Shown here piece after piece: positions 3,192 through 19,053 of a stretch of DNA of 21,423 nucleotides. A program made the position numbers and the translations under genes. The stretch is taken from positions 1-21,423 of the IMG/VR virus record IMGVR_UViG_3300042898_001876; one strand, written 5' to 3'. Numbering within the stretch: the first letter of the stretch is position 1; the number at the start of each line of letters is the position of its first letter. This DNA comes from a virus. The notes under the pieces are model-generated. The model did no database searches. It had not been told where the DNA came from and worked only from the letters and a program-made list of their open reading frames with translations.

Positions 3192-3463
3192 AAGGGCATT
3201 TCAAATATATTAGTAGCAAATACCATAATACATTTTTTCTTTAATTGATTTAATTTTGATACTGAAAGAGGTTTCCCATTAATTTTAATAACTTTACATC
3301 TTCCACTCACATAAGTTGATATAGGTTTTAATTTGTATCCAATTTTTTTAAAAACTTTTTCATTTTCAAATACATAATTAGTGTTAGGTAAATAATGAGT
3401 TATTATTACAAAATCACAATTAATTATTGTGTTTTTTGGTATAGCTGAAATGTTCGTTATCAT
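3188..3463 (-). CDS. Unknown 91-residue protein downstream of the integrase
   Basis: A basic protein without membrane segments or recognised motifs. Its first 44 nt overlap the 3' end of the integrase gene in another frame, and no downstream ATG gives a sensible shorter form. Co-transcription with the integrase is very likely. By position it could be a recombination accessory factor, but it lacks a visible HTH or excisionase pattern. The middle (KLKPISTYVSGRCKVIKING) looks beta-rich. Confidence 0.5.
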   Translation of the reverse strand: MITNISAIPKNTIINCDFVIITHYLPNTNYVFENEKVFKKIGYKLKPISTYVSGRCKVIKINGKPLSVSKLNQLKKKCIMVFATNIFEMPF

Positions 3464-4280
3464 TTTTTAAAATTATAGAGCATAAAGGACTTTCAATTTG
3501 AGTAATGTCAGTATCAATAATTTTTATATAATTAGCAGTGGTGTTTATATTTTTATGCCCTGCTAATTTCTGTACGCTTCTTAAATCAACTCCATTTTTT
3601 ATTAATTGGGTCAGGCAACTATGTCTCATAGAGTGGGATGATATGTTTTTACTAAAAGGAATTGCAGCTTTCTTTATAATACATTGAACGCTTTTTACTG
3701 AATACTTTTCGCCTTTTGCGCCCTCAAACAAATATTCTTTTACCTTATATTCACGATAGTAGTCCCTTAAAAGTTCAAGTAAACTAGAATCTAACATTGT
3801 TATTCTGTCAACTTTGCCTTTGCCATTTCGGATATTTATTTTATTGTTATTAGAATCAATATCTTTTATTTTTAAGTTGACAACTTCACTTACCCTAAGA
3901 GCGCACGAATACATTAAACAGATAATAGCCTTATGTTTTAGGTTAGCAGTATTTGTTATCATGCTTTGTACCTCTTCAATAGATAATATATCAGGCTGTT
4001 TTTGTTCGACTTTTGGTCGTGGCAATATCTTGTGGTCAAAATCTCTATCAAAACACAATCTAAAATATGTTTTAAATGAATTAATTATGCTCATTTTTGT
4101 AGATGATGACAAATGTTTATTTTTAAGTAAATATCCTCGAATATCAGTTTCGTTTATATTTTCAGGCTCTTTTTTAATAAACTTAGAGCATTGAATAATA
4201 CTTGAATTGTACATTTTTATTGTACTTGAACTAAAATTTTTTAAATACATCAGTTCGTTAAAGTTTGTGATTGAATCCAT
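3420..4280 (-). CDS. int: Tyrosine recombinase (phage integrase, XerC/D-like)
   Basis: This 286-residue protein has the standard two-domain layout: a SAM-like core-binding domain at about residues 5-90 and a catalytic domain at about 95-270. Catalytic residues are R129 (CALRVSEV), a beta-hairpin lysine near 154-156, H216-x-x-R219 (HSMRH), H242 (LAGHKN) and nucleophile Y251 (TTANYIKI). It would cut and join DNA at att sites to integrate and excise the element. The length is typical of Xer-like integrases. There is no inserted I2 helix between the two halves of the catalytic domain, so it is not an integron IntI. The gene starts 4 nt after a promoter element, and repeats lie just upstream. Confidence 0.93.
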   Translation of the reverse strand: MDSITNFNELMYLKNFSSSTIKMYNSSIIQCSKFIKKEPENINETDIRGYLLKNKHLSSSTKMSIINSFKTYFRLCFDRDFDHKILPRPKVEQKQPDILSIEEVQSMITNTANLKHKAIICLMYSCALRVSEVVNLKIKDIDSNNNKINIRNGKGKVDRITMLDSSLLELLRDYYREYKVKEYLFEGAKGEKYSVKSVQCIIKKAAIPFSKNISSHSMRHSCLTQLIKNGVDLRSVQKLAGHKNINTTANYIKIIDTDITQIESPLCSIILKNDNEHFSYTKKHNN

Positions 4281-4284
4281 AATG

Positions 4285-4313
4285 CAAATATAAACATTTT
4301 ATTTGATATACGC
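4285..4313 (-). promoter_or_regulatory. Promoter of the integrase gene
   Basis: On the minus strand TATATTTG (4285-4292) fits TAnnTTTG. A TTG-containing element (TTGC or GTTG, around 4312-4316) lies 19-20 nt further upstream and fits the TTG form described for Flavobacterium promoters. The ATG begins 4 nt downstream, which predicts an RNA with no, or almost no, 5' leader. The -33 element lies inside the 9-bp repeat at 4307-4315, so a protein bound there would block transcription. Confidence 0.6.
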
Positions 4314-4343
4314 AACTATTCGTAATATATTAGTTATACGCAA
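4307..4343. repeat. Direct and inverted repeats beside the integrase gene (possible recombinase or operator site)
   Basis: TATACGCAA occurs at 4307-4315 and again at 4335-4343, a 28-bp period. Inside, AACTA (4314-4318) and TAGTT (4331-4335) form an inverted repeat with a 12-bp gap. Tyrosine recombinase core sites are short inverted repeats with small spacers, and attP usually lies near int. This is therefore a candidate attP core or an autoregulatory operator. The right copy also forms the boundary of the methyltransferase unit. Confidence 0.4.
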
Positions 4344-4346
4344 GCA

Positions 4347-5132
4347 CTACATTTCGTTTCCAAAGAGAGTTTGCGTTTCAAATTTTTTATTAAAATCTCC
4401 CACCCTCTTTAAAATCATATCATAATACTTTTGTTCTTTTTCCATTACAATAAATTGGCGTTTCGTATTTAAACAAGCTATTGCAGTCGTTCCGCTTCCA
4501 GCAGTATTGTCTAATACTAATTCTCCTTCATTGGTGTAGGTTTTAATTAAGTGTTCAAATAAAGGAACAGGTTTTACAGTTGGATGTTTTATGCTACCTC
4601 TTGCACCAGTTGTAATATTTATAACTGTTCCAATCATTCTGTCTTTATTTGCATAATCAAAAGAGCCATCTTTCATTCCAAATTTATGTTCTGAATTGTT
4701 TATGTAATTTACAGGATATTTAGCCCTTGAATAACCAGTTCCTTTTCTGCTTTCAAATTGTTTATTGTATGTTGGCGTTTTGGTATAAAATACACAAATT
4801 GTTTCGTGGTATCTTAATGGTTTAATATTGCCATTTCCAAAGTCGGCAGGTTTGTCTTTGCACCACACCATATCATACTTAAACAATTTTCTATTGCTCA
4901 ATATTAGTTCTGTTGTAAATGGTTGCGTTCCAAACAATAAAATCGCCCCATTTGGCTTAATAATCCTTTCGTATTGCTCCCATAGTTTGTCAAATGGAAT
5001 TATCGTGTCCCATTTACAAGCCGTAGTTCCATAAGGTAAATCGCAAAGTATCATATCAATACTTCCGTTTGGTATATCCTTCATAAGTTCCAAACAATCA
5101 CCTAATAATATTTCTTTTTTGCCCTCGCTCAT
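4347..5132 (-). CDS. DNA methyltransferase, N6_N4_Mtase family (probable adenine N6)
   Basis: A 261-residue class-beta enzyme, with the catalytic motif before the cofactor motif. DLPY at residues 31-34 is the catalytic motif IV, a D-x-P-Y form usual in N6-adenine enzymes. HPTVKP at 183-188 and DNTAGSGTT at 208-216 make the AdoMet-binding motif I. It transfers methyl from AdoMet to DNA. No restriction endonuclease lies nearby, so self-protection against host restriction is the likely role. It shares its last six residues (LFGNEM) and its leader with the next methyltransferase gene, although the rest of the protein is different. It sits in a unit bounded by attC-like repeats. Confidence 0.9.
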   Translation of the reverse strand: MSEGKKEILLGDCLELMKDIPNGSIDMILCDLPYGTTACKWDTIIPFDKLWEQYERIIKPNGAILLFGTQPFTTELILSNRKLFKYDMVWCKDKPADFGNGNIKPLRYHETICVFYTKTPTYNKQFESRKGTGYSRAKYPVNYINNSEHKFGMKDGSFDYANKDRMIGTVINITTGARGSIKHPTVKPVPLFEHLIKTYTNEGELVLDNTAGSGTTAIACLNTKRQFIVMEKEQKYYDMILKRVGDFNKKFETQTLFGNEM

Positions 5133-5193
5133 TTTAATAAAAAATTTGTTTCGTGTTTCAATTTAAGTTTATCGCTTAATAATCCGTGCCAGC

Positions 5194-5294
5194 GTATAAC
5201 AGCGGCTTTGTGCTATTTGCCCCATCAACATTTGTGGTAACTTGAAACTTTGTGCAAAGGGCAAACAGACACAAAGCCGCAAAACGTTATAAGC
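5194..5294 (-). repeat. attC-like palindromic element 1
   Basis: The element forms nested stems: TATAAC (5195-5200) with GTTATA (5286-5291); an 11-bp perfect stem at 5202-5212 (GCGGCTTTGTG) with 5270-5280; a 3/4-nt internal loop; then TTTGCCC (5216-5222) with GGGCAAA (5259-5265). The two sides are asymmetric: 1 nt (A) separates the outer and main stems on the left and 5 nt (AAAAC) on the right. This matches the plan of integron attC sites: inverted core sites ending AAC and starting GTT, extrahelical bases, and a stem that is conserved in shape rather than sequence. On the minus strand it follows the stop of the second methyltransferase directly. It fills the intergenic space. Confidence 0.6.
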
Positions 5295-5299
5295 AAGTG

Positions 5300-6025
5300 C
5301 TACATTTCGTTTCCAAATAGAGTTCCTGCTTGTAATTCTTTTTCTTTTCTTTTTTCTCCCACCTTTTCTAAAATGGTATTTTCTTTTTCTTTATCAATTT
5401 CTGAAATTATACAATCAATTCCATTCTGCTTACATACTTTCATTGTCGTTCCACTTCCTCCAAAGGGGTCATAAACTACATTCGGTTTGTTAGGTATTGC
5501 ATCAAGTATGTTTTGCACAATTCCATCAGGCATTACTGCTATATGGTTTTGGTCTTTTCTTTGGTGTGTTGGTACTAATCTCCATACATCAGATAAAGAA
5601 TTTTTATTTAGCAACTTTACTTTTGGATTTTTAGTTAACCAGTAAATCCTTTCTGAAAATGGAAAGAAGCGTATTTTATCGCAATTAGCACTTTTACCCA
5701 TATCCCAAGTAATTTCTTGCTTAATCACAAAATCGGTTTTTAAAATCCATTCCATTGGGTGTATTGCTTTCCCATCTTTAATTCTTACTTTATGGTTATA
5801 AAACATACTTCCATTTTCAGAAAGCACTCTATGACATTCATTCAATACTTCAATTTGCCAATTTTGATAATCAGGTTCTTTCATATCATTATTGGCATAG
5901 CTTCCAAATTGCAATCTGTTACTGTGCATTTTGCCTATGTTGTAAGGCGGTGAAGTAATAATCAAATCAATACTATTATCTTCAAATCGTTTTAGCGTTT
6001 CTTCGCAAGGTTCTAAATATATCAT
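5300..6025 (-). CDS. DNA methyltransferase, N6_N4_Mtase family (SPPY type)
   Basis: A 241-residue class-beta enzyme. SPPY at residues 25-28 is the catalytic motif; S-P-P-Y is commonest in N4-cytosine enzymes but also occurs in some adenine ones. DPFGGSGTT at 186-194 is the AdoMet site. It differs clearly from the neighbouring methyltransferase in sequence, apart from an identical C-terminus (TLFGNEM), which comes from an 18-nt identical stretch at the end of both genes. No cognate endonuclease is visible. It is probably an anti-restriction or epigenetic enzyme carried as a repeat-bounded unit. Confidence 0.9.
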   Translation of the reverse strand: MIYLEPCEETLKRFEDNSIDLIITSPPYNIGKMHSNRLQFGSYANNDMKEPDYQNWQIEVLNECHRVLSENGSMFYNHKVRIKDGKAIHPMEWILKTDFVIKQEITWDMGKSANCDKIRFFPFSERIYWLTKNPKVKLLNKNSLSDVWRLVPTHQRKDQNHIAVMPDGIVQNILDAIPNKPNVVYDPFGGSGTTMKVCKQNGIDCIISEIDKEKENTILEKVGEKRKEKELQAGTLFGNEM

Positions 6026-6124
6026 TCTACTTTATTTTAAATTTTATTTTTGCCACCGCACAAAAAAGAAAAGAAAAGGTGTTCGTCTTTCAAATCAAGT
6101 TCTGTGCTATAAATCCGCACCAGC

Positions 6125-6219
6125 TTATAACAGCAGTTTGGCAAAATACCGCCACAAACTTTTGTGCTTAAATCAAACATTCTGCAAGGCGGTACTTCGC
6201 CAAGCTGCAAAACGTTATC
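6125..6219 (-). repeat. attC-like palindromic element 2
   Basis: It has the same plan as the element at 5194-5294: ATAAC (6127-6131) with GTTAT (6214-6218); GCAGTTTGGC (6133-6142) with GCCAAGCTGC (6199-6208), with one G-T pair; 4/4-nt internal loop; TACCGCC (6147-6153) with GGCGGTA (6188-6194). The same 1-nt A and 5-nt AAAAC asymmetry is present. The inner stem sequence is unrelated to that of element 1 but still fully self-complementary. The 40 or so bases beside the conserved end (AATCCG..CCAGC and beyond) are also similar in the two copies. Confidence 0.6.
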
Positions 6220-17577: not shown

Positions 17578-19053
17578 TTAAATTTTTTCAGGCAATACCT
17601 CTCCTTTTATTTTGGCATACGCTCTGTTAAGTTTTTCCCAAATTTTTTCATCTTTAAATTTAAGGTGCATTGTGCTTTTCTTAAACAACTTGAACTCAAA
17701 GAACTCCCAATCGTACCATGTGTTAGGTTCAAATTGATTATATCTTAATATCTTATCTCCGTACCCTGTATTTCTATCGCTCGAAACCCTATGTCCTTTC
17801 TCGGTCAAATAACCCTCTTCATTCTTATCGCAGTTAGCGTATTCAATGCTCATCATTTTATCGTGGTTAGTTCCCGTTATATTACAGATAACTTTGATTA
17901 AGTCTTCTATCTTCTCAAAGTTGATTCCATATCCTTTTACCCTCAAACCTCTTACATAGCTTGGTTCTGCTATATAATCAACGATAAACTTTTTATTCAG
18001 CATATATCCGCTATTGGTTTTCCATCCTTCAACGCCATATCTATTTTCGTGTGTATGCTGTGTGAATTTGTCAATAGCTTCAACGAGTGCCTTGTTAAAA
18101 GTTTGGTCTTTAGTACCCACGATAATATCAAACATCTTATAAATGTTTTTAACCGTAAAGGGGATGTTAGATTGATGTTCAACAAAATTGTTAATATCTT
18201 TCATAACTCCGCTTGTAAGATATTTGTTTAAATTCATTTTATCAAAGATGTACTTCCAAGACTTTTTTTGCAGATGTTTAGAAAAATCGGATTTAGTAAC
18301 AACCGTTTTATCGTAAGCAACAGAATAAGAAAACCCATTACCCATACCTACGGGGCTGCAAAGGCTTGTCATTCTAGCGTTAATAACAGAAAACTCGTCA
18401 TAGCATTTAATAGCACCCATGTAAGAATTAACAAGGCTTTGAACTTCATTGTATTTCATTATGCCGTTACTTCCTGCTGTTTCAGGTTCAGCATCCATGT
18501 AAAAGCCTTCAAAGTTTGTACTTTGATTGGTAACGGGTTTGTAAAGTTTAATACAAGATACACTTACGTTTGTTTTTCTTTCGGCTGTGCTAAAACATTC
18601 GCCTAAGCTAACAGAGTTACCATAAGAACTTATAAGCGTACCTATTTCGCTTTGTCTTCCCCAATGACTTATACTATCTGAATTGCATAAACTTATTATC
18701 TCGCACCCATCAGGGGCAACATTCCAAGCGTGTAATATATGTTTTTTAGATTCTGAAAAAGGAGGATTCATAACAATTTGAGTTATGTGGCTTATTTCTT
18801 CACCCGTTACCTTTAAGAAATCATTTTTAATGAATGTTGCCTTTGGCTTGCAGATAGTTGCTAAATCTTCGTTTATCTCACAGAAAGAAATATTTGCAGC
18901 ACCATGTAATTTAAGGTAGGTTATGATGTTACCCTTCCCTGCACTCGGCTCAAGTACCGTATGCCCTACACAATCAATTTGCATAAGGTCAAGGACTTTG
19001 GAGGGGGTGGGGTACATATCCTCGTGAAATATGTTACTATATTTGCCTTCCAT
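17578..19053 (-). CDS. DNA adenine methyltransferase fused to DUF4942
   Basis: The protein has 491 residues. The N-terminal domain (about 1-190) has EPSAGKGN (35-42, AdoMet site) and NPPF (96-99, catalytic), in the I-then-IV order of class-gamma N6-adenine enzymes. The C-terminal part (about 200-490) matches the DUF4942 region often fused to phage methyltransferases, ending in WYDWEFFEFKLFKKSTMHLK. It probably methylates phage DNA against host restriction. It is unlike the other two methyltransferases in motif order. Its start overlaps the coiled-coil gene's end by 17 nt. Confidence 0.85.
   Translation of the reverse strand: MEGKYSNIFHEDMYPTPSKVLDLMQIDCVGHTVLEPSAGKGNIITYLKLHGAANISFCEINEDLATICKPKATFIKNDFLKVTGEEISHITQIVMNPPFSESKKHILHAWNVAPDGCEIISLCNSDSISHWGRQSEIGTLISSYGNSVSLGECFSTAERKTNVSVSCIKLYKPVTNQSTNFEGFYMDAEPETAGSNGIMKYNEVQSLVNSYMGAIKCYDEFSVINARMTSLCSPVGMGNGFSYSVAYDKTVVTKSDFSKHLQKKSWKYIFDKMNLNKYLTSGVMKDINNFVEHQSNIPFTVKNIYKMFDIIVGTKDQTFNKALVEAIDKFTQHTHENRYGVEGWKTNSGYMLNKKFIVDYIAEPSYVRGLRVKGYGINFEKIEDLIKVICNITGTNHDKMMSIEYANCDKNEEGYLTEKGHRVSSDRNTGYGDKILRYNQFEPNTWYDWEFFEFKLFKKSTMHLKFKDEKIWEKLNRAYAKIKGEVLPEKI

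Follow-up and report, generated by a model that had tools for sequence, protein, structure and literature searches.

A probable integron-type cassette array with its own I2-less recombinase in a Bacteroidota phage

Layout of the locus and its hairpins

The window, i.e., the whole stretch of DNA analysed here, is an entire IMG/VR virus record of 21,423 bases and carries phage genes for an endolysin, a primase/helicase, replication initiation, and an exonuclease subunit. A megablast search of INPHARED with the whole window as query gave no match. A DUF4942 domain (residues 259 to 484) was observed in a 491-aa protein encoded at 17578 to 19053; this is a domain assignment only.

The gene of a 286-aa tyrosine recombinase, the putative integrase of the array, lies on the minus strand at 3420 to 4280, with all catalytic residues present and without the I2 insertion of IntI. 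Next to it on the plus strand are an attI-like site (4281 to 4333; AATATATTAG|TTATACGC), whose insertion point G4333|T4334 is 53 nt from the recombinase start codon, and two gene cassettes. Cassette 1 (4334 to 5286, plus strand, as is the top strand of its attC) contains a gene for an N6/N4 DNA methyltransferase of 261 aa on the minus strand (4347 to 5132; Pfam N6_N4_Mtase, 3.5e-25), and the left flank of its attC (5186 to 5200) is complementary to the start at 4333 to 4347. Cassette 2 (5287 to 6214, plus strand) contains a second such gene, for an N6/N4 DNA methyltransferase of 241 aa, also on the minus strand (5300 to 6025; N6_N4_Mtase, 1.5e-31); its start, TTATAAGC, is complementary to the left flank of the second attC, GCTTATAAC. 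Each cassette thus very likely consists of one methyltransferase gene and one attC. A preliminary description, made without database searches, had pointed out the two hairpins but overlooked the recombinase and attI site at 3420 to 4333, with which the locus is a complete integron-like array and not merely a pair of attC sites.

The first hairpin, attC1 (5195 to 5291, plus strand), has the left box GCGTATAAC and the right box GTTATAAGC, a cut at G5286|T5287, and an outer 15-nt complementarity starting at 5186. The second, attC2 (6126 to 6219, plus strand), has the left box GCTTATAAC, the right box GTTATCTGA, and a cut at G6214|T6215, and forms the end of the array. The preliminary description had given both elements the same outer boxes, TATAAC/GTTATA. 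This held in part: attC1 has TATAAC at 5195 to 5200 and GTTATA at 5286 to 5291, and attC2 has TATAAC at 6126 to 6131, but its right box at 6214 to 6219 ends in C (GTTATC). The asymmetric spacers (A and AAAAC), the main stem of 10 to 11 bp, and the small internal loop were confirmed as described, as were the two 7-bp inner stems, unrelated in sequence yet perfectly paired. The covariation read from those stems, however, had to be refined. Their difference comes from the two elements belonging to separate attC families, not from a single site that covaried step by step, and the strongest covariation is that between the left flank of an attC and the start of its own cassette. It had also been overlooked that the outer boxes pair best with the preceding junction, not within one element of the array. 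Near-identical copies of attC1 adjoin other genes in loci L088, L180, L185, L170, L203, and L160, and an Rfam search of the elements returned no match.

The minus strand, which is the bottom strand when TATAAC..GTTATA is taken as top, folded with z = −5.7 (attC1) and −4.1 (attC2), and 0 of 200 shuffles were equally good. Corresponding values for the plus strand were −3.4 and −2.1. When each attC was rebuilt as it would be in a circular cassette, folding was even better (z = −8.1 and −6.1, respectively). Among 612 attC, the bottom strand was the more stable in 532. That the folded single strand is the substrate, as had been proposed, remains an inference.

Complementarity across junctions and the attI site

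An integron cassette is a circle before insertion, and its opening bases pair with the left box of the attC that it carries. Because the cassette was once circular, the complement of an attC left box sits at the previous junction in the array. Both cassettes of the window conform to this: GTTATACGC at 4333 matches the reverse complement of GCGTATAAC at 5192 to 5200, and GTTATAAGC at 5286 matches that of GCTTATAAC at 6123 to 6131. A further complementary box after attC2, TCAGATAAC, is absent from the window. Over 282 consecutive attC pairs from all loci, the match averaged 3.81 of 5 variable positions and was perfect in 159, against 2.06 when the left box was compared with the element's own right box and a mean of 1.93 (maximum 2.12) in 1000 shuffles. 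Among the matched pairs, complementarity extends over 15 nt, position 11 being a conserved A/G mismatch; from position 16 on, agreement is random. With regard to the strict boxes GTTRRRY / RYYYAAC, GTT was invariant, position 4 was A in 92%, and T was the commonest base (58%) at position 5, although the detector itself required GTT[AG]. Since positions 5 and 6 are often T or another base, GTTRRRY fits only loosely. Furthermore, the detector demands pairing, and so counts of paired stems on its matches are not independent evidence; the box chain, the attI site, and the breakpoints described below are.

To locate the attI site, the stretch separating recombinase and array was scanned for a sequence complementary to the left box of the first attC; this identified a junction in 65 of the 71 virus cases and in 34 of the 37 cellular ones. 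The virus junction is mostly 37 to 53 nt from the start codon, with the consensus TATATAATAG|TT; the same position and TATATAATAG|TT recurred at most of the 56 distinct virus junctions showing an 8-nt box match. The cellular junction lies about 60 to 150 nt beyond the stop codon and has an ATATAAA..AG|TT-like end. A few long distances between recombinase and junction possibly represent missed first cassettes.

The recombinase family and its distribution

The recombinase matches Pfam Phage_integrase (1.9e-38). Its best NCBIfam model is NF040815, with 188.5 bits under a curated cut-off of 220, and the IntI criterion TIGR02249 is not met (142.6 bits; cut-off 265). Catalytic residues were kept in nearly all of eight aligned relatives from attC loci. 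The additional domain of IntI (the I2 helix) near patch III is missing, the protein having about 40 residues fewer. The alignment to 2A3V is gapped there (query 173 to 204, chain 179 to 257), the TIGR02249 matches are split at about 181/240, and the distance from the K-motif to HxxRH is 58 to 72 residues in 197 relatives vs 105 to 107 in IntI. An AlphaFold model (mean pLDDT 79.6, pTM 0.61) was built on 8 sequences only; its domain arrangement is unreliable, and it is regarded as support only. By sequence, its closest PDB entries are XerC-like and XerA proteins. Archaeal and bacterial XerA-XerD recombinases (NF040815, 4A8E, 5HXY), the best PDB and NCBIfam matches, share the domain plan and length of the window protein. 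Unlike them, it falls under the curated cut-off, groups with IntI and not with XerC/D, and is tied to attI/attC arrays rather than to dif. In the tree, the recombinases group with IntI, apart from XerC/D, in a clade of 27 rows with support of 98/100. As outgroups were few, other tyrosine recombinases thinly sampled, and the archaeal branch very long, we regard them only provisionally as a lineage without I2 that is sister to the sampled IntI. According to Messier and Roy (cited in PMC9668308), integron recombination requires the additional domain of IntI, and in the accepted account it was acquisition of the I2 helix that took integron integrases from recombining double strands to recombining single strands (PMC7790495). 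The missing I2 domain therefore counts against the window recombinase acting as an integron integrase.

The suggestion that similar elements occur in Bacteroidota chromosomes proved correct, and it extends to many Bacteroidota virus contigs. A gapped pattern search returned 60 contigs from viruses and 36 from genomes, and the genome contigs were almost all from Bacteroidota. Archaeal pattern matches (L125 and L131) were treated as chance or binning, as the structural detectors did not pick them up. Applied to 205 loci, the detector for the hairpin plan picked up 199 elements, against none in reversed and shuffled copies of these loci. In the relatives, the ends are conserved while the paired centres vary, and successive matches are usually separated by a single gene, which supports the attC reading. 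Recovery of nothing but exact copies of one repeat, which would have refuted it, was not seen; the elements differ. The attC interpretation of the preliminary description thus held, on the box chain, the attI site, the geometry, and breakpoints at G|TT.

A locus search with the window recombinase as a single protein gave no confirmed relative, and an alignment of eight was needed. With it, 318 relatives were found in virus contigs, of which 80 were kept, on contigs of up to 310 kb; arrays of the same type are present in many Bacteroidota virus contigs. Most of these contigs are metagenomic, and their hosts are inferred. In virus loci, the array has the recombinase at one of its ends, in a single orientation, together with a conserved attI site: 226 attC lay on the expected side and strand, 1 had the inverted geometry, and 14 were elsewhere. 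Most of these loci were chosen by recombinase, not by attC. The same family occurs at the attI end of chromosomal arrays (40 loci), where, unlike in the virus loci, the recombinase reads toward the array. Such a recombinase is present in only 4 of 50 virus records that were chosen by attC and absent from the other 46; many arrays would therefore need one in trans or are fragments. Thus, most phage arrays seen have no recombinase of their own, and the window is among the complete ones. Related integrases without an attC array in the stretch read were encountered in the Cellulophaga phage Ingeline and the Polaribacter phage Freya, and that of phage Leef had one weak attC match in the 12.7 kb read. 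A Chryseobacterium plasmid (L404:8924-13543) also carries the recombinase with an array; there, a 143-nt GTTGGGA... repeat is present three times beside attC-like boxes and may represent a small insertion within attC.

Surveys relying on the additional domain to recognise integrases found very few Bacteroidetes integrons, and IntegronFinder 2.0 named one complete case, Salinibacter (PMC9024848), vs a strong match to the recombinase in 112 of 395 sampled Bacteroidota genomes in our study.

Cassette content, exchange, and the integron reading

Among 104 viral cassette proteins, Pfam identified 15 N6/N4 methyltransferases, 3 D12, 2 C5, 1 Dam, 1 Mom, and 3 PAPS reductases, and the 49 cellular cassette proteins were varied, with toxin and abortive-infection types included. 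The methyltransferases are inferred to guard phage DNA against host restriction. Viral cassette genes are read from the attC end (191 vs 9), whereas cellular ones are read toward the attC (52 vs 15). In long phage attC (over 110 nt; e.g., L019, L024, L028, L040, and L055), the start codon is often within the hairpin loop, where the longest ORF began in 26 of 71; one arm of the recombination site therefore encodes a protein N-terminus.

Shared blocks between otherwise different loci ended within 10 nt of G|TT in 185 of 1339 cases, where 16 were expected (maximum 28 in 200 trials); a stricter set gave 85 vs 5 expected. Loci L030 and L184 have one cassette in common, and their similarity starts and stops exactly at G|TT. 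The DNA of window cassette 1 (4333 to 5201) is 92% identical over 869 nt to a 170-kb phage contig (L234:8202-9070). This match begins exactly at G|TT (G4333) and stops at the attC left box; therefore, the cassette 1 gene was exchanged without its attC, which simple cassette insertion does not explain. The near-copies of attC1 that adjoin other genes are the converse of this case.

Taken against the features that define an integron, the window has a tyrosine recombinase gene adjoining the array (3420 to 4280, with the geometry of the virus loci), an attI insertion point beside that gene (G4333|T4334), attC hairpins with complementary end boxes and a preference for bottom-strand folding, and attC left boxes complementary to their own cassette starts in both cassettes; the shared-block ends attest to cassette exchange between arrays at G|TT. 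The cassette gene should also read toward its attC, with the attC at the 3′ end, and this is not met, as both window genes are opposite. A gene reading toward the attC is usual but not obligatory in known integrons, and hence orientation was not treated as defining. The definition of a CALIN, an attC cluster without integrase, does not apply to a window that has a recombinase with attI. We consider it very likely that the cassette array in the window, small but complete, is of the integron type and is carried by a Bacteroidota phage. This rests on sequence; recombination itself is inferred, without an assay. Units bounded by G|TT, circle-derived complementarity of the boxes, best folding of the bottom strand, a conserved attI, a fixed geometry of the recombinase, and G|TT breakpoints of cassettes common to unrelated contigs are shown. 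In the mechanism we propose, the recombinase at 3420 to 4280 would be the one acting on the array; it would insert circular cassettes at the attI beside its own gene, might excise or reorder them, and would act on the folded bottom strand of attC. The cassettes would arm the phage against host restriction.

With known integrons (IntI, attI, and attC; Vibrio and class 1), the system shares the order recombinase, attI, cassettes, the G|TT cut, hairpin attC with asymmetric spacers, circle-derived box complementarity, better folding of the bottom strand, and cassettes common to several arrays. Unlike them, its recombinase has no I2 domain, the cassette start and attC left flank pair over 15 nt with the conserved A/G mismatch, and virus genes are read from the attC end, the cellular arrays of this type having the usual orientation. 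A 2023 study had already described attC sites and integrons carried by phages, among them an array with two methyltransferases in a Polaribacter phage (PMC9892861). IntI1 recombined an attC of the Polaribacter phage P12002L via its bottom strand, and no recombinants were recovered from the top strand (PMC9892861). Elements of the same plan were found by us in P12002L, without an A1-family recombinase. These phage CALINs of Qi et al. (PMC9892861) likewise have attC around methyltransferase genes in a Bacteroidota phage, but were reported without integrase. With phage-borne attC already published, the window system is a variant with its own I2-less recombinase and attI, of a type shown here to be widespread. 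In the open literature searched, which left subscription papers and preprints outside its scope, no paper linked Bacteroidota arrays to an I2-less recombinase.

Three other explanations were considered. The array could be a CALIN-like relic, with genuine attC beside an unrelated lysogeny integrase and cassettes moved in trans by a host integron integrase. The 46 of 50 attC-chosen records without a recombinase and the Ingeline, Freya, and Leef integrases are in its favour. However, the virus recombinase stands at the attI end in one orientation (226 vs 1), the first cassette junction is at a near-fixed distance from its start codon, and the same family occupies the attI end of chromosomal arrays. 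We therefore hold this explanation to be very improbable. Palindromes of the REP or MITE kind, terminators, or insulators between phage genes would account for elements that are palindromic, intergenic, and in many copies. They would not account for a left-flank complement at the previous junction instead of in the same element, on which ground the terminator, REP, and MITE readings were rejected, nor for gene blocks exchanged at G|TT and the absence of an Rfam match; this explanation is practically ruled out.

A third possibility competes only with the single-strand step and not with the array itself, i.e., that the recombinase treats the array as a series of double-stranded sites of the usual Xer type, and that the hairpins are incidental or have a role in expression. 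The lack of I2, the XerC-like and XerA matches in PDB, and the gene starts inside the loop in 26 of 71 long attC speak for it. In contrast, stem sequences vary freely with pairing kept, 532 of 612 attC fold better on the bottom strand, which is also the polarity of known attC, and the published relative gave recombinants from the bottom strand only (PMC9892861). Thus, this explanation appears unlikely.

Beyond the integron-type array, which remains our preferred reading of the window, we lean by a small margin toward a bolder view: a second integron lineage, common across Bacteroidota and the phages that infect them, with an integrase that needs no I2 helix to recombine attC folded as single strands. 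Through this lineage, phages would trade anti-restriction genes in reverse-oriented cassettes, and it would have supplied tet(X) to pathogens. If this is true, single-strand recombination predates I2 or does not need it. An I2-less sister lineage beside attI and hairpin attC arrays makes the I2-acquisition account directly testable. Phages would also have their own system for trading cassettes, with DNA methyltransferases abundant among the cargo.

The drug-resistance gene tet(X) resembles a cassette of the window type (L403:2967-5117, L406:5040-7230, L430:1300-2700). On Acinetobacter plasmids, a recombinase of the family and then a junction G|TTATGTGCC precede tet(X3), and the truncated left arm of an attC comes after it. 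An 86% identical homologue on a Bacteroidota chromosome starts at the same G|TTATGTGCC and ends in an attC with a complementary left box. The TnpF/XerD gene beside tet(X3) on the plasmids belongs to the recombinase family of the window (49% identity) and is likewise followed by an attI-like G|TTATGTGCC and a cassette gene. The unit differs in being a captured remnant inside ISCR2-type units with its attC truncated. The XerD gene beside tetX had been noted as a gene of a mobile element, not as part of an integron (PMC11194056); the window system explains why a recombinase stands next to tet(X3).
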